33,709 nt of DNA from Lachnospiraceae bacterium. GTDB taxonomy: Bacteria; Bacillota; Clostridia; Lachnospirales; Lachnospiraceae. Where the stretch lies: the NCBI GenBank assembly GCA_017437065.1, contig JAFSBX010000072.1:1-33709 (forward strand), read 5' to 3'. The notes beneath the pieces were generated by a model. That model did no database searches, had not been told where the DNA came from, and saw only the letters and a program-made list of their open reading frames with translations. The first letter of the stretch is position 1. Every line of letters begins with the position of its first letter. Of this stretch, positions 1-16,393 are shown piece after piece. Made by a program: the position numbers and the translations under genes.

Positions 1-68
1 CTTGTTTTTGATAAAGATTTAAGATATTTTCTTTCCTCATCAGTTAATGGGAGATATGTTTGTTTCAT
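1..68 (-). CDS. 5' tip of an unidentified gene (cut by window edge)
   Basis: Only the first 22 codons are inside the window. The peptide begins MKQTYLPLTDEERKYLKSLS. An AAAGGA ribosome-binding site lies 8 nt before the ATG, and an extended -10 promoter lies further upstream. A short N-terminus with an 'LTDEER' motif is seen in the helix-turn-helix start of IS30-like transposases, but 22 residues are too few to assign it. The gene runs off the left edge. Confidence 0.45.
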   Translation of the reverse strand, partial: MKQTYLPLTDEERKYLKSLSKT

Positions 69-97
69 GATAATCATCCTTTGTATTTGATAGAAAG

Positions 98-106
98 ATT
101 ATATCA
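98..106 (-). promoter_or_regulatory. Extended -10 promoter for the left-edge gene
   Basis: On the minus strand the sequence is TG-A-TATAAT, an extended -10 element, about 30 bp before the ATG at 68. No good -35 hexamer is seen at 17 bp, which fits an extended -10 promoter. It lies downstream of the protease terminator, so the left-edge gene is probably a separate transcript. Confidence 0.4.
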
Positions 107-207
107 TATGTCACGTCAGTATTCTATAGGGTACTTATTTATTTTTCTTAGTACTAGCACCTCTCATGGATAATAATATAAAAACTGTTCATGACATAAT
201 TATACAT

Positions 208-246
208 AAAAAAATCAATCGGAAAACACTCCAATTGATTTTTTTC
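208..246 (-). terminator. Intrinsic terminator of the ATPase-protease operon
   Basis: Just after the protease stop codon the minus strand forms a stem from AATCAAT(T)GG pairing with CC(G)ATTGATT around an 8-nt loop, followed by seven T. It sits directly downstream of the S8 peptidase gene and should end that transcript. Confidence 0.7.
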
Positions 247-248
247 AT

Positions 249-2552
249 TTATTCAACAGGAACCATAACTTTGTTCACATTATGGATTTCTATCGGCAAC
301 AAGTTAGAGTATGTCTGTAGTATATTATCATACAAATTCCCTTTATACCCTTTGGCTTCAATAGTAACTGCTACAAAATACTTAATATTTTCATGCTCAT
401 ACCCATTTCTTCCAATCGCATGCAATGTTAAAAATGGGTTTAACAATGATGTTGCTCTCATAGATTTGGTTTTCTTTATAACAGTATCCCATTTTAAATC
501 TTTATTTCTAAGTGCATTCTCACTTTTATCTTTTTTTGCAGCACCACTTACAGGTAATTCCGACATTTTATATCCTTGCTCCAATAATTTTTCCATCTGC
601 TGTGCATCTTCTGTTTTTGTAAGATTTAGCTTTATTGTCTTTTTCCCTTTTTTCGAAAAGTTAAACACCGCACTGTTAGGATAAAATGTATCTTCTATAC
701 AGTTATTGGTATATGCATCCGTATCTGTTATATCCGGATTAACAATAGTTGTTATCGTCCATATAACACTCACATTTCCTATTGATTGATTAACTCCAGG
801 TGAAAAAATAGGTAATTTAACCGTACTCGCAGCAGGCAAATCTCCCGAATATAGTATTGTCACTTTATTTCCAATACATTTTAAAATATCATCAACATCC
901 TCTTTACCAAATCCATATCCACATTCATTATCCCGCACCCCAGACATAGAGGTCGCATTATGAATCAATAATGTTCGTCCCAAATGTGGAGTAATTGATG
1001 GTGAATGTGCCATCATCCGACCAATTTTTCCCGTTGCCACAGGAGTTGCCAAACTTGTCCCTGCACTAATACCAACCTTATCATTACCTCTTCCAACAAC
1101 AATGAACGGCCGTTCCTGACTGCCACCAAACTCTAACAAATCAGGTTTTGTTTTCGCTCCTTCTCTTCCAGGACCTACACTGCTATAATCTGCTCTGATT
1201 TTTTCACCAAACAAATTATATGTATATGCTCCCACCGCAAGTCCATTTACCATATCAGACGGGGTTTGAATACGGTTCAAATACTCCCCTCTATTACCAT
1301 CATTACCGACAGCAGTACAAAAAAGCGGGTTAATTTCTCCTTCCTCTACATTATATGTCAGACGATCCAATGCATATGTAAATCGACTTATATTATCATC
1401 CAAAATCGGTTCTTTAGGACCAAATGATAAGTTATATAATTTTATATCTTTACGTTCAGCTACAACAGCTTCAATTTGATCAATAGTTTCGTACATTCCA
1501 TGTACCGATTCAGCATCTCGTGTACTCGTTATCTGTGTTTCAGCTGGCAACACTCTAAATGACTCTACGAATACAGAGGGATTTTTCAATTCATCTGATG
1601 GGTTTTTTCCACCTAAGTGACCATGCAATATAGCTCCACACACTGAATTCCCATGTTGTAACGAATTTGATGTGGCCGTTGTATTTACTACATCATTTTC
1701 CTTTGCATAACCTTTTAACAGGACATGATCTTCAATTATACCACCATCAAACATTCCTACTGTTATATTAGAACGCATTTTCTTTTTTGCCGGCCTAGGA
1801 CCTTCCACTTCCTGCACCATTCGCAATGGTTCAAGATCAATATCTCCCATAGGGTGCAAAGACCTCAATGGATTAAACTTTTCAATAGCTGCTATTATTT
1901 CCCGATCGCAAACTGCACTGATAAAAGTTAAACCTTTTTCATAGCTTTTTATCTTTATTTCATTTGAAGATAAACCTGAAATTTCCATAAATGCATCTAA
2001 CATTTTCTGGACACTATTTTCCAAAGGATGAAGAACAATTTCTATTGTTCCTTTCGTCCAATCCTCTGTCAATCCCTGAACCTTCTCCTCGCTACTTAGC
2101 AGGTCTATATTCTTTATAGACTGTATCTGTCTTCTCCATTTTTCGACAGTATCCTTACTTCCATTTCTCAGTGTTTTTTCTAATTTATCTATTCCTGCAT
2201 TTTTTGTCTTGACAAAATACAATTTTGCATCTTTTTTTTCGCCATTTTCATCTACAAAGGCATATTTTCTTCCACCTATAATCTGCATGTCTTCCGATAT
2301 CATCAAAGAATCTGGAACATATGATTTTGCTTCCAATTTAGGCTCCAATCGAATACACAGAACTTTTTCATCCAAAAATATTTCTTCTTTATCTTCGATC
2401 TTCTTTTTGATATTATTCAAATCATTGCAAATATTTATTTTTGCGTCGTTATAATCATGCGGCCATTCTTTAGGTGGAAAATTCATTTTTTTACTAATCG
2501 GCTCTACATATAATTCTCCATTTGCAATAATGGGATATTTTCCTTTTTCCAT
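249..2552 (-). CDS. S8 family subtilisin-like serine peptidase, partner of the AAA+ ATPase
   Basis: A 767-residue predicted cytoplasmic serine protease with no signal peptide. The catalytic triad reads as Asp269 in VGMFDGG, His300 in QHGNSVCGA and Ser500 in SAGTSLATP, with the oxyanion Asn417 in AVGNDG. The catalytic domain covers about residues 260-540. About 260 residues of unassigned N-terminal region precede it, including an Arg/Lys-rich PAKKKMR linker, and about 220 residues follow. The start ATG has a strong AGGAG site located in the last codons of the upstream ATPase gene. The two ORFs are 4 nt apart, so they are probably translationally coupled. AAA ATPase plus S8 protease pairs have been reported as candidate anti-phage modules (I recall the IteA/IteS naming, not verified). 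The family call is seen directly; a defence role is inferred from the pairing and the mobile surroundings. Confidence 0.9.
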   Translation of the reverse strand: MEKGKYPIIANGELYVEPISKKMNFPPKEWPHDYNDAKINICNDLNNIKKKIEDKEEIFLDEKVLCIRLEPKLEAKSYVPDSLMISEDMQIIGGRKYAFVDENGEKKDAKLYFVKTKNAGIDKLEKTLRNGSKDTVEKWRRQIQSIKNIDLLSSEEKVQGLTEDWTKGTIEIVLHPLENSVQKMLDAFMEISGLSSNEIKIKSYEKGLTFISAVCDREIIAAIEKFNPLRSLHPMGDIDLEPLRMVQEVEGPRPAKKKMRSNITVGMFDGGIIEDHVLLKGYAKENDVVNTTATSNSLQHGNSVCGAILHGHLGGKNPSDELKNPSVFVESFRVLPAETQITSTRDAESVHGMYETIDQIEAVVAERKDIKLYNLSFGPKEPILDDNISRFTYALDRLTYNVEEGEINPLFCTAVGNDGNRGEYLNRIQTPSDMVNGLAVGAYTYNLFGEKIRADYSSVGPGREGAKTKPDLLEFGGSQERPFIVVGRGNDKVGISAGTSLATPVATGKIGRMMAHSPSITPHLGRTLLIHNATSMSGVRDNECGYGFGKEDVDDILKCIGNKVTILYSGDLPAASTVKLPIFSPGVNQSIGNVSVIWTITTIVNPDITDTDAYTNNCIEDTFYPNSAVFNFSKKGKKTIKLNLTKTEDAQQMEKLLEQGYKMSELPVSGAAKKDKSENALRNKDLKWDTVIKKTKSMRATSLLNPFLTLHAIGRNGYEHENIKYFVAVTIEAKGYKGNLYDNILQTYSNLLPIEIHNVNKVMVPVE

Positions 2553-2556
2553 ATCA

Positions 2557-3651
2557 TCACTCCTTTATATATCTTCCAACTGATGCCGATGAAATCATAG
2601 TAATATTTGAAATATCTCTCAACGATAATTCTGGAAATTCATTCTTTATCCTCTTACATAATTGAACTTTTTCATTTCGATCTTTTAATTCAATTATGCG
2701 GCAACACTCTCTCAAAGCAAGTATATCTGGCTTGTCATCGTGATTCATCACCATCTGACGCTTTATATGTTCACATAGTTTACAAATTTCAGAAGCAGAA
2801 ACAGTTTCTGTATTTCCAACAATGAACTTTATTGTATCACTTTTCATCTCACCGAACTTATTACCCAATGTTCTCTCAACAAGTTTCCTGCGTTCTTCCT
2901 TTCCAGGCATAGGGATTTCTATATTCCTATCGAATCGCCTCCATATTGCTTTATCCAATATCTCCGGGTGATTAGTAGCACCTACAATCACACAAGTAAC
3001 CGGACATTCTTCCAATTCTTTTAGAAGGACATTTACCAACCGTTTAAGTTCTCCTAAATCTCCCATATCATCTCTTCTTTTTGCAATAGCATCTAACTCA
3101 TCCAAAAACAAAATAACATTTTGGGATTTAGCATAGTCAAATATACTTTTTATATTTTGTCCACTTCTACCCAAGTAACTTGATATCGATGTTGCCAAAT
3201 CAACCGTCACTATTGGTAAATTAAGTTTATAAGAAAGCCATTTTGTTATATACGTTTTACCTACCCCTGGTTTTCCGCTCAATAATATACTATTAGGTGG
3301 AACAATATCCTCTTCCAAAAATCTTTTCAACAATTCGCGTTCTAGCAAAAAATCCTTTAGTTGATGCCAAACCTCTGGCGATAATATCGGTTCTTCTACC
3401 ATTATCGGTTCTTCCACCTTCACCAATTGGCTTCGAGTTTCTCTATCAACTGGAGCGGGGGTCAAATCCAATGTTCTCAATGTGTCAGCCCCCACGCTGC
3501 TATTGGCGGTTATTTGCATAATTTCCGATGCTATTTGAGGATACTCTTTTTTTATTTTTCTCCCTATCATGAGAGAAATCGATTCTACAGCCTTCTTATC
3601 ATTATTTAATGCTGCTCTTATTAATTTAGGAATCAATTCATATACTATCAT
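2557..3651 (-). CDS. AAA+ ATPase, first gene of the ATPase-protease module
   Basis: A 364-residue single-domain AAA+ protein. The Walker A motif is GKPGVGKT (126-133), Walker B is LFLDELDA (181-188, Asp184/Glu185), the sensor-1 region is GATNHPE (224-230), and there are paired arginines Arg238/Arg239 in IWRRFDR as finger candidates. Residues 1-95 are a helical region of unknown role. The last 25 residues (about 340-364) look like a small helix-turn-helix. The arrangement resembles classic AAA proteins that feed or gate a partner protease or remodel a target. The start ATG follows an AGAGGAAA site. A perfect promoter and three TTGATACA boxes lie upstream. The stop is 4 nt before the protease start. 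ATPase identity is very likely; the substrate is unknown. Confidence 0.9.
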   Translation of the reverse strand: MIVYELIPKLIRAALNNDKKAVESISLMIGRKIKKEYPQIASEIMQITANSSVGADTLRTLDLTPAPVDRETRSQLVKVEEPIMVEEPILSPEVWHQLKDFLLERELLKRFLEEDIVPPNSILLSGKPGVGKTYITKWLSYKLNLPIVTVDLATSISSYLGRSGQNIKSIFDYAKSQNVILFLDELDAIAKRRDDMGDLGELKRLVNVLLKELEECPVTCVIVGATNHPEILDKAIWRRFDRNIEIPMPGKEERRKLVERTLGNKFGEMKSDTIKFIVGNTETVSASEICKLCEHIKRQMVMNHDDKPDILALRECCRIIELKDRNEKVQLCKRIKNEFPELSLRDISNITMISSASVGRYIKE

Positions 3652-3679
3652 TTATATCATTTCCTCTTTTTTTATTTTT

Positions 3680-3761
3680 TTGATACATTGAAATTATACT
3701 GTTTTATCAACGTTTTGTCAATCTTGTTGTATCAATTTTATTTTAATTTATTTTTGATACA
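3680..3761. promoter_or_regulatory. Three TTGATACA boxes flanking the operon promoter (putative operators)
   Basis: The octamer TTGATACA occurs at 3680-3687 and 3754-3761 on the plus strand and, inverted, at 3728-3735. One copy overlaps the predicted transcription start and two lie upstream of the -35 box. Copies one and two face each other across the core promoter; copies two and three form an inverted pair with 18 bp between. This is the layout expected for a dimeric repressor or a looping operator. The cognate regulator is not identified; the ATPase C-terminus is one candidate. Confidence 0.55.
3693..3721 (-). promoter_or_regulatory. Perfect consensus sigma-A promoter of the ATPase-protease operon
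   Basis: On the minus strand TTGACA (3716-3721) and TATAAT (3693-3698) are separated by exactly 17 bp. Both hexamers match the consensus exactly. Transcription would start near 3686, about 35 nt before the ATPase ATG. A promoter this strong on a potentially toxic protease module suggests that a repressor controls it. Confidence 0.85.
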
Positions 3762-3769
3762 CTTTTAAA

Positions 3770-3799
3770 GCCGATCAGGAATCGCAACTCCCAATCGGC
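3770..3799. terminator. Likely terminator after the serine recombinase remnant
   Basis: GCCGAT at 3770-3775 pairs with ATCGGC at 3794-3799, with an inner GGA/TCC pairing and T-rich flanks on both strands. It lies just past the recombinase stop codon and upstream of the ATPase promoter, so it insulates the two units. Confidence 0.5.
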
Positions 3800-3807
3800 A
3801 TCTTTTC

Positions 3808-5227
3808 TTACTCCTCTTCATTTTTACATTCAATCTCCGTTCCGTCCAGGAACACCACCAACAATGTTCCATCCTCAAAAACCTTAATGTGGTCCAGTGT
3901 TTTCAGCATGAAGTCCGTATCCATCTCTGTCAGAGGTTCTGCTCCATCGGTGTATTCTATGAACTTCTCTGCCCGATAACCTTCTAATAGGTTCTCGCTC
4001 TGCAGATGTTCCGTCCACTGCTCCATGAAATCCTCTCGGTTCTCCACCAACGCATTCCAAGCCATAAGATATGCCTTTATCAGCGTTTCTTCCTCCACGT
4101 GGCGGTTGGCACCTCCCATGACTCCTTTGACCTTGTAGCGTTCACTGCATTGCCATACCTTACGGTCAACACCCGTGCTGCTCCGCCAGCCTTTTCGTGC
4201 AAATACCTTATTGCAGTCTCCGCAAATAATCTTGGATGCAAATGGATTGCTTTCCGGCCGGTGGGAATAGGAGTTTGTCCCAATGCTCCTCCAGATACTT
4301 TTTCCTGCGTTTTATTTCAAGCTGTACACATTCCCATATCCGCTTTGAAATGATGGCATCATGGTCATCCTCCACATAAAACATCTGAATTTCCCCTTTG
4401 TTCTGTGTACGTTTCTTGGTGAGGAAATCCACCGTATAACTTTTCTGCAGCAAGGCATCACCCTTGTATTTTTCATTTTCCAACATACTCATTAAGGTTG
4501 TGGACTGCCACTTCGTACCTCCATCCCAGTTTTTCACACCTTCCCGTTCAAAAATCCGCTTGATGTAATCGGTTGTTTTTCCGTCCAGGAATTCCTGATA
4601 CAATCGTATTACAATTGGCTCCTGTGTCCTGTTGATTACCAGCTTCCCCGTTTCATCCGTATCGTATCCAAGAAAACGCTTTGTACTCATTTTGTGTTTT
4701 CCTGTTTCAAACCTTCTGCGGATTCCCCATGTGCAGTTCTCTGAAATGGACCGGCTCTCATCCTGTGCCAGTGAGGAAAGAATGGTCAGCAGCACTTCGC
4801 CCTTTGCATCGAGGGTATTGATATTTTCCTTTTCAAAAATAATCCCTATCCCCAAATCTTTCAACTCTCGCACATAGTTCAAACAATCCAGCGTATTTCT
4901 TGCAAATCGGGAAATGGACTTAGTAATAATCATGTCTATTTTCCCCGCCCTGCAATCAGCAATCATGCGGTTGAATTCATCTCTCTTTTTGGTATTGGTT
5001 CCCGAAATTCCTTCATCCGCATAAGTCCCTGCATATTCATAGAGAGGATTATCGCTGATATAATTTGTGTAATAATTGACCTGATTCTCATAGCTTAATA
5101 ACTGTTCTTCTTGGTCGGTTGACACTCGGCAGTACGCTGCCATCTTCAATTTCTGCACTGACTGTGCTGTTCCTGATTCCGCAGTCGAAATCTGCTTTGC
5201 TGGTATAACAGTAATGCTTCTTGCCAT
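3808..5227 (-). pseudogene. Large serine recombinase, frameshifted (copy A)
   Basis: The N-terminal resolvase domain is intact: the catalytic serine lies in YCRVSTDQEEQ, with SRFARNT and FEKENINT motifs and the QDESRS helix following. The recombinase domain (FLGYD..., NEKYKGD) follows. A single extra A around 4282-4283 (after EEH) shifts the frame; without it the protein continues as GTNSYSHRPESNPFASK into a zinc ribbon. The first knuckle CGDC and the Cys of WQCSER are present, but the last zinc Cys is replaced by Gly (VMGGANRH). The coiled C-terminus runs to 3808. The start at 5227 is chosen because it has an AGGAGGTGG site; it lies inside the 3' end of copy B, a 140-bp overlap. Probably inactive, and the debris of an integrative element. 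Confidence 0.8.
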
Positions 5228-6093
5228 TTTTAACCACCTCCTCAATCACTGTCTGTTCCGTAATGTTCAAGCCTTGCAATTCGGAATCATCAATCCTTAT
5301 CCCTTTACATGCCTTGACTCCCTTTTCAATGTAGGTGCTGCAGAGCCATTGGATTTTCTTCGTGTAAACCTGTCTGCGCCGGAGCGTTTTTCCGCAATAA
5401 GGGCAAAGCAGCATTCCGCTTAAAGGATAGCGGTTTTGGAACTTCATTGTGCTGTCCTGTCCGATATTCCTGTCACGCTTTCTCTGTTCCCTGACTTCCT
5501 GCACCTTTTCCCATACCTCCGGCGATACAATTGGTTCGTGATTTTCCGAAATGTAATAACTCTGCACTTCCCCGTTGTTTTTCCTTGTATGGTTTCTTTT
5601 GTTTTCAGGGGTGTAATACTTCTGCAGATGAAAATCCCCTTTGTACTTTTCATTGCAAAGCATCCCATTGATGGTCCCGCTTTCCCATGTTGTTCCCGTC
5701 ACCGTTTTCACACCCAGGTAATCAAGCAGCTCCCCAATCCTTGACGAGCCGACATTCATTAGATACAGGTCGAAAGTCAGACTGACAATTTCCGCTTCCT
5801 TTCTGTTCACAATCAAATCTCCATATTCGTTTTTGTCATAACCGAGAAAGCGGGATGTGGTAATCATCACTTCTCCTCTCTCAAACTTCTTCCGAATGGA
5901 CCATTTATTGTTTTCACTCATGCTTCTGCTTTCTTCCTGTGCAAAAGAAGCGAGGACGGCAAGCATCATCTCACCGTCCCCTGATAGAGTGTTAATGTCC
6001 TGTTCTTCAAAAAAATACCGACACCCAGTTCCTTCAGTTCCCTTGCGAACTTTAGAACGGTGACGGTATTTCTAGCAAACCTCGATTTTCTAA
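5088..6093 (-). pseudogene. Large serine recombinase, N-terminally truncated and frameshifted (copy B)
   Basis: From SRFARNT onward this matches the large serine recombinase family: QEESRSMSENNKWSIR, FLGYDKNEYG, NEKYKGDFHLQ and the zinc ribbon CPYCGKTLRRR...WLCSTY. The first 65 or so residues, including the catalytic serine, are missing. Similarity stops at about 6088, next to a long hairpin. A run of seven A at 6009-6015 puts the frame out: eight would restore GIFFEEQDINTLSGDGEMM. The open part (293 codons, 5088-5969) still reads well. It lies upstream of and overlaps copy A, as in the tandem recombinase cassettes of clostridial integrative elements. Confidence 0.8.
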
Positions 6094-6158
6094 TAAAAGA
6101 AAAAGCAATTGTTTTCATTTCATAAAATATAAATGAAGGCAATTGCTTTTTGTCTTTT
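6094..6158. terminator. Long AT-rich hairpin at the recombinase truncation point
   Basis: AAAAAGCAATTG (6100-6111) pairs perfectly with CAATTGCTTTTT (6140-6151). The pairing continues inward through TTTCATTT/AAATGAA and outward through TAAAAGA/TCTTTTA with a 2-nt bulge. A- and T-runs flank both sides, so it can act as a bidirectional terminator, for example for the DisA_N-like gene that ends at 6293. It could also be a small inserted palindromic element. Confidence 0.6.
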
Positions 6159-6292
6159 ACTAAGTTAATGACATTGCAGAAAATCAAGGTTTCCTCGAAA
6201 GCAGACAAACGGTTTCAATATTCCCAGTAATGAGAATTTATACATACAAACCAAAATAAAAAGCACAAATAAACTTAAAACCTCATTAAATA

Positions 6293-7639
6293 TTATATTT
6301 CTTTTCCATTGCTTATTAAATTTGCATATCCATCTTCTGAAAACACCACAATTAAATTTTTCTGTTCTCTGCGGAAATAAGAATACTTTATAGCCGAATT
6401 ATATCTCGCACCTCTCGCCATATCAAACCCATTATCACTTGGCATTTCTCCATCTAATATTGTTCCTATAGCATAAACCTTTCCCTGTTTATCCATTAAT
6501 ATAGCCCCATCAATAGCAGTTATTTGTTCCACATATTTATCAATATTATCTTTTACTTTTATTCCAAATCCTGCACTATTTAATCTTCTTTTCTCTTCCT
6601 TCATGTCATCTAAAAAAACTAACATAGTACCATGCTTCTGTGATTTAGCCTTATCAACTATCTTCCAAATAACATCTATATTATCATCACACTTAAATAT
6701 TTTTTGAAAACATCTTCTAAATTTTTCTTCAAAACTATCATCATTACAAATTATCTTTAGATTTATACCACTGAACTCTATCCCTTGTCCTTTACTATAC
6801 TCACCCTCTTGACTGAATCTCCAGATTCCATTCCCCTTAAACTCTATTAAAAAATAATTGCCATAAATATTTTTAGGTGAAATAAAACCAACAATACATT
6901 CTTGATTATATAATAGATATAAACCGTCCTTATCTGCTTGATATGTAATTTGTAACAATTTTCTTATCTTCTTAGTCTCATGTAACCTTACTACAGTTTC
7001 TAAAACTATATCACACTCATTATCTAAATATTCAGAAATCACTATAAATTTTCCTATCATTTCTTCACTTTCATATGTCATCTTAGAAATTTTTTCGATT
7101 GCAGTAACACTCGAAAAATAAGACAATTGTGATAAACAAATAGTGTTTCCTGAAATCCTTTCTTCAATGAATTCTCTGCTCCACACATATATTTGATTTT
7201 TCAAATATACAACATCATCTCTATTTTCTTCTATTACAGATACAAATGTCTCAATTATACTTAAAAAACGTTGAACGATAAATTTCAAATATGTTTTTAC
7301 AAATTCTTCACATTTCTTATCGTTATATTTAAGTACAACTACAAAATCTCCATTTATATCTTTATAAGTAAATTTGTTAGAAAAATAGTAACTTTTTCCA
7401 CAGAAATTCGCTCTTTGTTTTGAATTCGCCCATTCTTGTAAGTCATTTTTTAAACTCTCATCTATATCTCTGTAATTACCTACACACATCTCATTTTTCG
7501 ACTCATCAATCGCTAAAAGCCCTATTTGATAATCCAATTCATTTTTTAAACCTAATTCATAAAAAAGTACTTTTACTAACTCTTCCAAATGTCTAGTATG
7601 ATATTTCATATGATTGTTAATATAACGAATATTTTTCAT
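6293..7639 (-). CDS. Stand-alone protein with C-terminal diadenylate-cyclase-like (DisA_N) domain
   Basis: A 448-residue protein. Residues about 330-448 resemble the DisA_N / DAC domain: HGTMLVFLDD (336-345), the DGA signature (377-379), then GARYNSA (410-416) where canonical cyclases have GTRHRAA, and VVFSEDG (431-437) in place of VSEETG. The DGA loop is intact, but the canonical Arg-His-Arg triad is Arg-Tyr-Asn, so activity cannot be assumed. Residues 1-320 match no family I recognise. Related proteins with 'probable sensor' N-terminal domains (DACNV, DACNG and others) have been described computationally in conflict-system contexts. There are no membrane segments. The ATG has an AAAGGA site 8 nt upstream. 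The gene is AT-rich with many AUA/AGA codons compared with rlmD next to it, suggesting transfer. Whether it makes c-di-AMP, another nucleotide or only binds nucleotides is open. Confidence 0.75.
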   Translation of the reverse strand: MKNIRYINNHMKYHTRHLEELVKVLFYELGLKNELDYQIGLLAIDESKNEMCVGNYRDIDESLKNDLQEWANSKQRANFCGKSYYFSNKFTYKDINGDFVVVLKYNDKKCEEFVKTYLKFIVQRFLSIIETFVSVIEENRDDVVYLKNQIYVWSREFIEERISGNTICLSQLSYFSSVTAIEKISKMTYESEEMIGKFIVISEYLDNECDIVLETVVRLHETKKIRKLLQITYQADKDGLYLLYNQECIVGFISPKNIYGNYFLIEFKGNGIWRFSQEGEYSKGQGIEFSGINLKIICNDDSFEEKFRRCFQKIFKCDDNIDVIWKIVDKAKSQKHGTMLVFLDDMKEEKRRLNSAGFGIKVKDNIDKYVEQITAIDGAILMDKQGKVYAIGTILDGEMPSDNGFDMARGARYNSAIKYSYFRREQKNLIVVFSEDGYANLISNGKEI

Positions 7640-7702
7640 TACTTCATTCCTTTCGTATATTATCTTTCGCCAAAATGTATATTTCCCGTTCCCAAAATCC
7701 TA

Positions 7703-7728
7703 TCCCCTGGGGTAAATCTCCGATTATA
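7703..7728 (-). promoter_or_regulatory. -10 box and start-site palindrome of the DisA_N-like gene
   Basis: On the minus strand TATAAT (7723-7728) lies about 85 bp before the ATG; the -35 region is weak (TTTCTG at 17 bp). Immediately downstream, at the expected start site, is the palindrome CCCC-A-GGGG within TACCCCAGGGGATA, which could be an operator. An 8-bp inverted pair TTTCGCCA / TGGCGAAA (7665-7672 and 7776-7783) brackets the region. Confidence 0.4.
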
Positions 7729-7792
7729 TCACCACTCTACGAAAACAGAAACACACATCTATTTTATTCCAAAAATGGCGAAATCCTTTGAT

Positions 7793-9253
7793 TTATTGGG
7801 CTTTTTTTGACAGAAGGCAGACTGTTTCCACATGGCTCGTAAACGGAAACATATCCACCCCTTCCGCTTTCTCAACCCTATACCCATTCTTTCCCAAATA
7901 CTTCAAATCCCTAGCCAACGTTTCCGGATTACACGACACATACACCACTCTATCCGGTTGCAGTTTCACCACAGAAGACAAAAACGCCTCATCACTTCCC
8001 GCACGCGGCGGATCCATAAACACTACATCCACATGCGCGCCCTGTTCTGCAAGCTGTACCATAAATGCTCCCGCATCTTTCTGATAAAAATCCACATTCT
8101 TAATCTGATTTCGCTTTGCATTCTGCACCGCATCTTTCACGGCATCCTTATTTAACTCCACACCCATTACTTTCTTCGCCTTATCCGCTGCAATCAGCCC
8201 AATCGTTCCGATACCGCAATACGCATCAATTACCGTCTCTTTTCCGGTCAGCCCTGCAAATTCTATCGCTTTTCCATAAAGTACTTCCGTCTGCACCGGA
8301 TTTATCTGATAGAAGGATTTTGGTGAAATTTTAAAAGTTTTTCCGCATAGTTCATCTTCTATAAACCCTTTTCCGTAAATTACCTGTTCCCTTTCACCAA
8401 GAACCATGCTTGTCCTTCGGTCGTTCACATTCAAAACAATCGTCGTGATTTCAGGATGTGCTTTTAAAAGTGCCTTTACAAAGTTATTTTTAGACGGAAA
8501 AACAGGTGACGACACTACCAGAACTACCATAAACTGACCACTTGTTTTTCCAACTCTTACCAAAACATGACGAAGAAGTCCATATCCTGTATCTTCATCA
8601 AACACTTTTATTTTAAAAGACTTCAACATCCCCCTTATTGTTCCGATAATTTCATCTGCCTTCTTATCCTCTAAAAGACACTCTTCCACCGGTACAACAT
8701 AATGCGTCCCCTCTTCATACACACCGGACAACGGATTTCCTTTTCTATCGTGGGTAAACACTGCTGAAACTTTATTCCTGTAATGCTCCGGGTGCTCCAT
8801 TCCATGCACTACTTCCAGCTTACAGAAATTCTGTAAAAGTTTTGCCGTATCTTTTTTCTTCTGCTCCAATTGCTTCTTATACGGAACATCAATAAACCGG
8901 CATCCTCCACATTTTTCAGACACCGGACAGCGACTATTTTTCTTTAATTCAACTTTGGAAAGATTATGCTCATATTTTATTTTATTTTCATCTGTCCGCT
9001 GCTTTTTCTGAACATTTTCGTATTTTTTTACCTTTTCTTTCTTTCCTTTTTCAAATTCAAAAGAATTCTTCCTTGGAGAATTGCTTATTCTTTTCCCATT
9101 TTCCTGCATTTTCTTTGTATTTTGTTGATTTTTTGTTTTTTGTTGATTTTTTGTTTTTTGTCTATTTTTTATATTTAGTATTTTTTCTGTTTTTTTTGTA
9201 TTTTCTATTTCTTTTCTATCATCTTTTTTCTTTCTGTTTTCCATCTTTATCAC
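7793..9253 (-). CDS. rlmD: 23S rRNA (uracil-5-)-methyltransferase, RlmD/RumA family
   Basis: An SAM-dependent enzyme that makes 5-methyluridine in 23S rRNA; in Firmicutes a single homologue (RlmCD) can modify two sites. The iron-sulfur cysteines are Cys109, Cys115 and Cys118 in CPVSEKCGGC. The substrate-side motif HPEHYRNKVSAVF follows, then the SAM motif DAYCGIGTIGLIA, FMDPPRAG, and the catalytic cysteine in YVSCNPETL. The first 105 residues are an unusual Lys/Gln/Asn-rich low-complexity extension with KNQQKT repeats; many family members have a short TRAM domain or nothing here. The start is GTG at 9253 with an AAGGG site 6 nt upstream; an ATG three codons later is possible. Substrate position within the TrmA family cannot be fixed by eye. 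Confidence 0.88.
   Translation of the reverse strand: MIKMENRKKKDDRKEIENTKKTEKILNIKNRQKTKNQQKTKNQQNTKKMQENGKRISNSPRKNSFEFEKGKKEKVKKYENVQKKQRTDENKIKYEHNLSKVELKKNSRCPVSEKCGGCRFIDVPYKKQLEQKKKDTAKLLQNFCKLEVVHGMEHPEHYRNKVSAVFTHDRKGNPLSGVYEEGTHYVVPVEECLLEDKKADEIIGTIRGMLKSFKIKVFDEDTGYGLLRHVLVRVGKTSGQFMVVLVVSSPVFPSKNNFVKALLKAHPEITTIVLNVNDRRTSMVLGEREQVIYGKGFIEDELCGKTFKISPKSFYQINPVQTEVLYGKAIEFAGLTGKETVIDAYCGIGTIGLIAADKAKKVMGVELNKDAVKDAVQNAKRNQIKNVDFYQKDAGAFMVQLAEQGAHVDVVFMDPPRAGSDEAFLSSVVKLQPDRVVYVSCNPETLARDLKYLGKNGYRVEKAEGVDMFPFTSHVETVCLLSKKAQ
9120..9170. repeat. Short tandem repeats in the rlmD N-terminal extension
   Basis: The plus strand repeats TGTTGATTTTTTGTTTT-like units about three times, which encode KNQQKT/KNQQNT on the minus strand. 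It is a T/G-rich low-complexity tract likely to vary in copy number by slippage. Confidence 0.6.
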
Positions 9254-15812: not shown

Positions 15813-16169
15813 TTAAGCCAATTTAGATTTAGCAAGTTCTGCTAAGGAAGCAAATCCTTCTGCATCATTAACAGCCATTTCAGCTAACATTTTTCTGTTC
15901 ATGTCAACACCTGCTAATTTTAAACCGTACATAAATTTGCTGTAAGATAATCCGTTTAATCTGGCTGCTGCGTTGATACGAGCAATCCATAACTGTCTGA
16001 ACTGACGTTTTCTTTCTTTTCTTCCTGCGTAAGAAGAAGTTAACGCTCTCATTACGGACTGTTTTGCGATTCTATACTGTTTAGATCTTGCTCCTCTGTA
16101 ACCTTTCGCAAGTTTTAATACTCTGTTATGTTTCTTTTTTGCGTTCATTCCGCCTTTAATTCTTGCCAT
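15813..16169 (-). CDS. rplT: 50S ribosomal protein L20
   Basis: A 118-residue basic protein with the usual L20 length. The N-terminus [20 protein letters not shown] and the later [16 protein letters not shown] and [11 protein letters not shown] segments are diagnostic. It binds 23S rRNA early in 50S assembly and, in Firmicutes, represses its own operon through the leader. GGAGG site; 26 bp after rpmI. Confidence 0.98.
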
Positions 16170-16195
16170 TGTTTCATTTCCTCCTTCTTAACCAA

Positions 16196-16393
16196 TTATA
16201 AGTATGGTAAAATCTTCTTCATATTCTTAACATTTGTTGCATCTGTAATAGCCGGTTTTCTAAGATTTCTCTTTCTCTTTGTTGTTTTCTTTGTTAAGAT
16301 ATGGCTCTTATAAGCTTTGCTTCTTTTTAATTTACCTGTTCCTGTTACTTTAAAACGTTTTGCAGCTGCTCTGCTTGTCTTCATTTTTGGCAT
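16196..16393 (-). CDS. rpmI: 50S ribosomal protein L35
   Basis: A 65-residue highly basic protein, the usual L35 length, beginning [20 protein letters not shown] and containing [17 protein letters not shown]. It is the middle gene of the conserved infC-rpmI-rplT operon, with a GGAGGAA site 6 nt before ATG. Confidence 0.98.

Follow-up and report, generated by a model that had tools for sequence, protein, structure and literature searches.

IetAS, reportedly first described by Gao et al. in 2020, is a family curated as anti-phage in which the gene for an AAA ATPase is followed by that for an S8 (subtilisin-type) protease. The DNA analysed here, referred to as the window, is a stretch of 33,709 nucleotides from a Lachnospiraceae bacterium (contig JAFSBX010000072.1 of assembly GCA_017437065.1), and it carries near its beginning two genes of this kind, designated ietA and ietS. 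An earlier note on the window had suggested the two as a plausible intracellular effector of abortive infection. The pair almost certainly belongs to the IetAS-type family in the broad sense used by PADLOC; the system is of a known kind, and the window holds a divergent new copy with new structural leads. As far as the accessible parts of two papers go (PMC11878078, PMC9958689), the mechanism of IetAS is unknown, and a survey of literature titles, with most subscription journals and all preprints outside its coverage, found no mechanistic study.

Relationship of the window pair to IetAS

The search with hidden Markov models that the earlier note had suggested gave matches for both proteins. 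IetA matched the PADLOC model PDLC02196 (IetA) with an E-value of 4e-86, covering residues 3–363, and IetS matched PDLC02197 (IetS) with an E-value of 9.8e-51 over residues 38–579 of 767; PADLOC cut-offs were not given. IetS also matched PF00082 (8.5e-27). In common with described IetAS systems, the pair has the AAA ATPase followed by the S8 protease in the same order, with an overlap or short gap, full-length homology and invariant catalytic residues. The sequences are nevertheless distant, since identity to the Dongshaea member is 20% for IetS and 28% for IetA, and identity to the pair of PfAC08, a filamentous Pseudomonas phage whose two genes are 2 nt apart (accessible part of PMC11878078), is 24% and 30%, respectively.

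With the NCBIfam equivalog models, which use the spelling IteA and IteS, the window IetS reached 116.2 bits against a cut-off of 900 (NF042956, 1.4e-33) and the window IetA 233.3 bits against 510 (NF042959). When ten relatives were scored with the IteS model, two reached 1002 and 998 bits and the other eight 95 to 325; the phage-borne pairs of Dash, phiT5282H and PfAC08, together with the window pair, lie at 95 to 156 of 900 bits, with 95 for PfAC08, whose authors name the pair IetAS. In the IetS tree (midpoint-rooted, without support values) the two high scorers, with loci L141, L143, L157 and L176, lie across the deepest split from the window, whose own branch also holds pairs from Paenibacillus, Enterobacter and Pf phages. 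The low scores are thus due to the position of the window on a deep branch other than the modelled one, and the pair is filed under IetAS broadly, outside the narrow NCBIfam equivalog.

The ATPase and the protease as a conserved unit

The two-gene module recognised in the earlier note recurs in viral contigs. The search patterns picked out 108 stretches of such contigs, of which 79 encode IetS relatives. IetA lies directly upstream of IetS in 72 of these 79 loci, the spacing of the two genes being -32 to +40 nt; the remaining seven comprise five cut by the end of the contig or locus and two with a broken ietS, so that every uncut locus with an unbroken ietS has IetA adjoining. Chance pairing is thereby excluded. 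Viewed from the IetA side (80 loci kept of 145), IetS adjoins in 74. A different partner of IetA was considered for the six others and rejected: in L111 and L142 the sequence runs out no more than about 230 bases from ietA, and L155 has a split S8 gene. Loci L153, L166 and L170 have an IetA-type ATPase with no adjoining protease and, by eye, no clear replacement effector, and may be orphans or have a partner of another kind. AAA proteins of Rhodobacter phages (11 of 24 matching records) were set aside, matching residues 74–310 or less among the matches listed; in the one context inspected, that of phage RcHotPocket, no gene was annotated as an S8 protease.

Furthermore, the two proteins co-diverge, with a Mantel r of 0.88 against a highest value of 0.20 in 999 permutations. 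This test used 56 pairs, left from 122 after removal of 66 near-duplicates, among them the pair of contig JAAYPT010000060.1 from a Clostridiales metagenome-assembled genome, hereafter L002. In 14 aligned pairs the gap between the genes is -8 to +19 nt; these alignments omit G394 (broken ietS), L020 (plasmid pTC1, with transposase genes between ietA and ietS) and L011 (apparently the same protein pair as L003). In L089, ietS is cut by transposase-type genes.

Domain organisation of IetA and IetS

Residues K132, D184, E185, N227, R238 and R239 of IetA are identical in all 67 aligned sequences, and D269, H300, N417 and S500 of IetS in all 52, both sets being the near-full-length copies left after de-duplication and length filters. 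Lys132, Glu185 and Ser500 had been named correctly as catalytic residues in the earlier note, and Asp269 and His300 complete the protease triad.

The AAA core of IetA is of the classic type and includes pore loop 1 (Y159-L160-G161), where the aromatic position is tyrosine or phenylalanine in 48 of the 67 sequences. Its closest folds are those of Rpt, PAN, FtsH, Vps4 and p97, in structural matches that span residues 64–362 and leave residues 1–53 unplaced. With the proteasome-activating ATPases (PAN, Rpt), FtsH and p97 it shares the AAA fold, the Walker, sensor-1 and arginine-finger residues and pore loop 1, whereas it differs from them in its C-terminal helix-turn-helix (HTH) and in having a subtilase as protease partner. 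The C-terminal HbYX docking tail of proteasome-type ATPases is absent, and IetA ends in a helical HTH-like unit with RYIKE as its last residues; for this reason IetA is not filed as a proteasome ATPase despite its core. The model would make it an ATPase ring resembling Rpt and PAN with a DNA-binding-type HTH at its C-terminus, a description that is new here.

The structure model of IetS (pLDDT 88.6) places an I9-like prodomain before the subtilisin core and a jelly-roll after it, by predicted fold and by alignments to pro-form subtilases, and this predicted architecture is likewise new here. IetS shares a predicted prodomain and the S8 core with pro-subtilisin E, Tk-SP and EpiP, and a C-terminal beta domain with Tk-SP; unlike these, it has no hydrophobic N-terminus and no I9 sequence match, and it has an extra N-domain and an AAA neighbour. 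The alignment of its C-terminal region had no match among PDB sequences at E-values up to 1, and the N- and C-terminal alignments pointed to no consistent Pfam family. The regions described as unrecognisable in the earlier note have been placed in part: prodomain, jelly-roll and HTH at the level of predicted fold, with residues 1–160 of IetS and 1–53 of IetA still unplaced. As had been proposed from the lack of a signal peptide, IetS is probably cytoplasmic, judged by hydropathy: the best 12-residue mean Kyte–Doolittle value for segments starting in the first 40 residues is 0.79. In secreted subtilases the I9 prodomain acts first as a folding chaperone and afterwards as an inhibitor that covers the active site; whether the domain predicted in IetS is likewise a zymogen prodomain seems to us evenly balanced.

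Organisation and sequence signals of the operon

The two genes lie on the same strand with ietA upstream and 4 nt between them (Table 1). Both the perfect promoter and the terminator read in the earlier note were recovered. The promoter is the sole match in all 12 positions among 27 promoter-like hits in bases 1–8000; as a class, such hits are not commoner than in shuffled sequence (mean 28.2). The terminator hairpin, whose folding energy is given in Table 1, was not in the list of the simple scan that gave the promoter. The ribosome-binding site of ietS overlaps the end of ietA, which suggests that translation of the two genes is coupled. An Rfam search at gathering thresholds returned two tRNAs only.

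Table 1. Features of the window and regions of the two proteins (nucleotide positions of the window unless given as residues)
Feature	Position	Strand	Basis or description
Repeated-element end, candidate insertion-sequence-like element	1..151	.	matched at 99% by the ends of two other contigs
Block common to window and L002	152..4865		98.2% identity, 4.7 kb; blastn
Intrinsic terminator 3' of ietS	208..245	-	17-pair hairpin, U-rich tail, -18 kcal/mol, z -5.8
ietS	249..2552	-	open reading frame; 767-residue S8 protease
ietA	2557..3651	-	open reading frame; 364-residue classic AAA ATPase
ietS ribosome-binding site, overlapping last ietA codons	2560..2566	-	read from sequence
Sigma-70-type promoter	3693..3721	-	TTGACA-17-TATAAT, 12/12 matches
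Probable detached C-terminal remnant of downstream serine recombinase	3808..4119	-	open reading frame; position and comparison with L002 reading frames
Serine recombinase that has lost its zinc ribbon but keeps the resolvase and recombinase domains; CcrB/CcrC-related	4208..5245	-	PF00239, PF07508; NF047343 2.3e-29, below cut-off
Second serine recombinase, recombinase domain and zinc ribbon, resolvase domain missing	5088..5969	-	PF07508, PF13408
N-terminal scrap of second recombinase	5966..6208	-	open reading frame, assigned by eye
Attachment-site-like stretch	6176..6256	-	84% identical to L002:2451-2531; IETVCLLSRKP-stop by eye, resembling rlmD-type gene end
3' end of rumA/rlmD-type gene, proposed attachment site	7809..7831	-	HVETVCLLS coding sequence
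IetA regions	residues		N-terminal three-helix stretch 1-53; AAA core and lid ~76-322; C-terminal HTH ~325-363
IetS regions	residues		N-domain 1-160; I9-like prodomain ~166-236; subtilisin core 261-558 (D269, H300, N417, S500); C-terminal jelly-roll ~560-735

Distribution and mobile setting

With the genome of the window counted each time, the protease was found in one of three genomes of the genus, in at least three of 397 of the family (G394, with ietS split in two frames, among them) and in at least five of 398 in a phylum-wide draw, the last two counts being lower bounds as at most two candidates were scored per genome. Among 72,556 plasmid records 28 hold relatives, as do 8 among 50,697 phage records, where one phage accounts for several entries; named phage carriers include Dash, Callan and Yyerffej of Paenibacillus, phiT5282H of Enterobacter and PfAC08 of Pseudomonas. 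This scattered occurrence in the genus and family led us to reject a core-gene reading, and there is no family-wide synteny with core genes of the kind that the earlier note had named as speaking against a defence role. On a plasmid of Rhizobium sp. 007 (L019), IetAS adjoins ThiF-family and multiubiquitin genes, which form a ubiquitin-like set linked to defence.

The window pair is a recently moved, mobile copy that occurs in different DNA contexts. It lies in the block common to the window and L002, and the flanking DNA differs between the two directly on both sides. Within the block, ietS is 99.5%, ietA 99.0%, the terminator stretch 100% and the recombinase remnant 94.3% identical. A divergence of 0.5–1.0% for the pair beside 5.7% for the remnant in one block may reflect unequal constraint or a patch of recombination. 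The lower boundary of the block falls exactly where the repeated element ends, an element which occurs at three places in the genome; the assembly breaks there, and the contig of the window ends inside this insertion-sequence-like repeat.

On the other side of the pair lie the two dead serine recombinases noticed earlier, each lacking a domain and accompanied by scraps (Table 1). An annotated relative of the first has 522 residues. For the open reading frame at 3808–4119 no NCBIfam family was found and the only Pfam match, to DUF6188, was below threshold. The chromosomal part of the window encodes ribosomal protein L20, IF-3 and threonyl-tRNA synthetase and ends with an rRNA uracil-5 methyltransferase gene (PF05958), which we read as being of RumA/RlmD type; after this gene two other members of the genus have different DNA. 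The HVETVCLLS coding sequence at its 3' end recurs in altered form in the attachment-site-like stretch of the window and three times in L002, and bases 7809–7831 match L002:743–765 and 16172–16194 with 5 mismatches in 23. Two of the three L002 copies belong to a direct repeat of 34 bp without mismatches (740–773 and 16169–16202), which resembles the 3' end of the rumA/rlmD-type gene and brackets the IetAS pair, a ParB-type HTH gene and a partial relaxase, as would be expected of stacked integrative elements at one site. Beside its recombinase remnant, L002:4293–6483 encodes a BlaR1 (M56) and transpeptidase-type protein and a BlaI-type repressor.

According to the accessible part of PMC4701971, rumA of streptococci is a known site of serine-integrase elements that exchange its 3' part. 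Like these integrative and conjugative elements, the window and L002 show a site in the 3' part of a gene for a 23S rRNA (uracil-5-)methyltransferase as well as serine recombinases, with direct repeats in L002, but the recombinases of the window are tandem and broken, the repeats of L002 are 34 bp long against 2–21 bp in the streptococcal elements, and no conjugation gene was identified in bases 1–7700 of the window. From the recurring rumA/rlmD-type 3' sequence, the repeats of L002 and the streptococcal site it is concluded that IetAS was brought in as cargo by serine-recombinase elements, now decayed, which are stacked where this gene ends.

A gene at 6293–7639(-), not present in the two other genus members, encodes 448 residues with a DACNH sensor domain and scores 172.7 of 630 bits (1e-50) with the anti-phage model NF053872 (DS2_3). 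By eye, its C-terminus is similar to a diadenylate cyclase domain in which the active-site motif is altered. It is possibly a second defence gene on the same island; a literature search on DACNH found nothing related.

Proposed mode of action and alternatives

A subtilase inside the cell has to be held in check. The predicted prodomain ahead of the core and the neighbour of unfoldase type, present in each uncut viral-contig locus with an unbroken ietS, suggest that IetA switches on IetS. IetS would be made as a self-inhibited cytoplasmic zymogen with the prodomain over the protease, and IetA would recognise a signal of infection, for which its HTH makes a nucleic-acid or nucleoprotein signal thinkable. 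The IetA ring would then pull on the prodomain or feed substrates to IetS, and the protease, once freed, would destroy proteins of the phage or of the host, so that the phage is stopped or the cell dies. We consider a real anti-phage function likely, and on balance favour the whole reading of a divergent IetAS-type pair carried by decayed recombinase elements, with IetS as a cytoplasmic zymogen under the control of IetA. That IetS is activated or fed by IetA is a fair guess that falls just short of an even chance. Cell killing as the outcome is put forward tentatively, abortive infection being plausible, and a role of the HTH as sensor is somewhat doubtful. In its most specific form, with a DNA-reading AAA ring stripping an inhibitory I9-like prodomain from the subtilase upon infection, ATP-gated zymogen immunity appears doubtful as a whole.

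Several observations weigh against this reading. Both proteins fall below the NCBIfam equivalog cut-offs. The prodomain is seen in the predicted fold alone: the N-terminal IetS alignment gave no PDB sequence match up to E 1, none of 30 IetS members matched Pfam I9, and the fold-alignment ranges rest on first and last residues rather than on inspected coordinates. The HTH piece of IetA matches weakly (E 0.3), the corresponding piece of L003 has no match, and the pore-loop aromatic is replaced by leucine in 19 of the 67 IetA sequences. Between the window and L002, ietS differs by seven nonsynonymous and four synonymous codons, with no sign of recent purifying selection. PfAC08 is statistically linked to resistance, but there were no lysogens carrying it (accessible part of PMC11878078), and no phage assay was found for the window pair or a close relative.

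The alternative that survives best is a small FtsH- or proteasome-like machine for superinfection exclusion or housekeeping, in which specific proteins of the phage or element are unfolded by IetA for degradation by IetS and the cell survives. Carriage of the pair by phages, the folds nearest to IetA and the mostly aromatic pore loop agree with it; the leucine-bearing sequences do not, and no closed chamber is known for subtilases; we regard it as unlikely. Less likely again is an addiction module of toxin-antitoxin type, with IetS as toxin restrained by IetA and the pair serving mainly to stabilise mobile elements. The accessible part of PMC11878078 places IetAS under toxin-antitoxin systems, the pair is mobile, and the broken members L086, L089, L155 and G394 retain ietA and have lost ietS. 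This loss fits a costly protease, but it also fits the size of ietS, which is twice as long and so expected to break more often, and ATPase residues invariant in all 67 sequences would exceed the needs of a mere antitoxin. That the pair is a decayed passenger, which happens to be still whole on a dying island and is inactive in this host, is very unlikely, since neither reading frame is broken, no catalytic residue is lost and the pair has diverged less from L002 than the recombinase remnant has, even though the neighbouring recombinases are broken, an insertion-sequence-like end starts 56 bases past the terminator hairpin and nonsynonymous differences outnumber synonymous ones in ietS.

For IetAS, a named system with no mechanism in the accessible papers, the predicted prodomain, pore loop and HTH are specific parts that can be tested. 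As the NCBIfam model fits one deep branch, automatic naming will miss pairs like that of the window. If the reading as ATP-gated zymogen immunity is true, the branch of the window would be a large half of the IetAS family, and IetAS would be a bacterial counterpart of the gated activation of protease zymogens in immunity.

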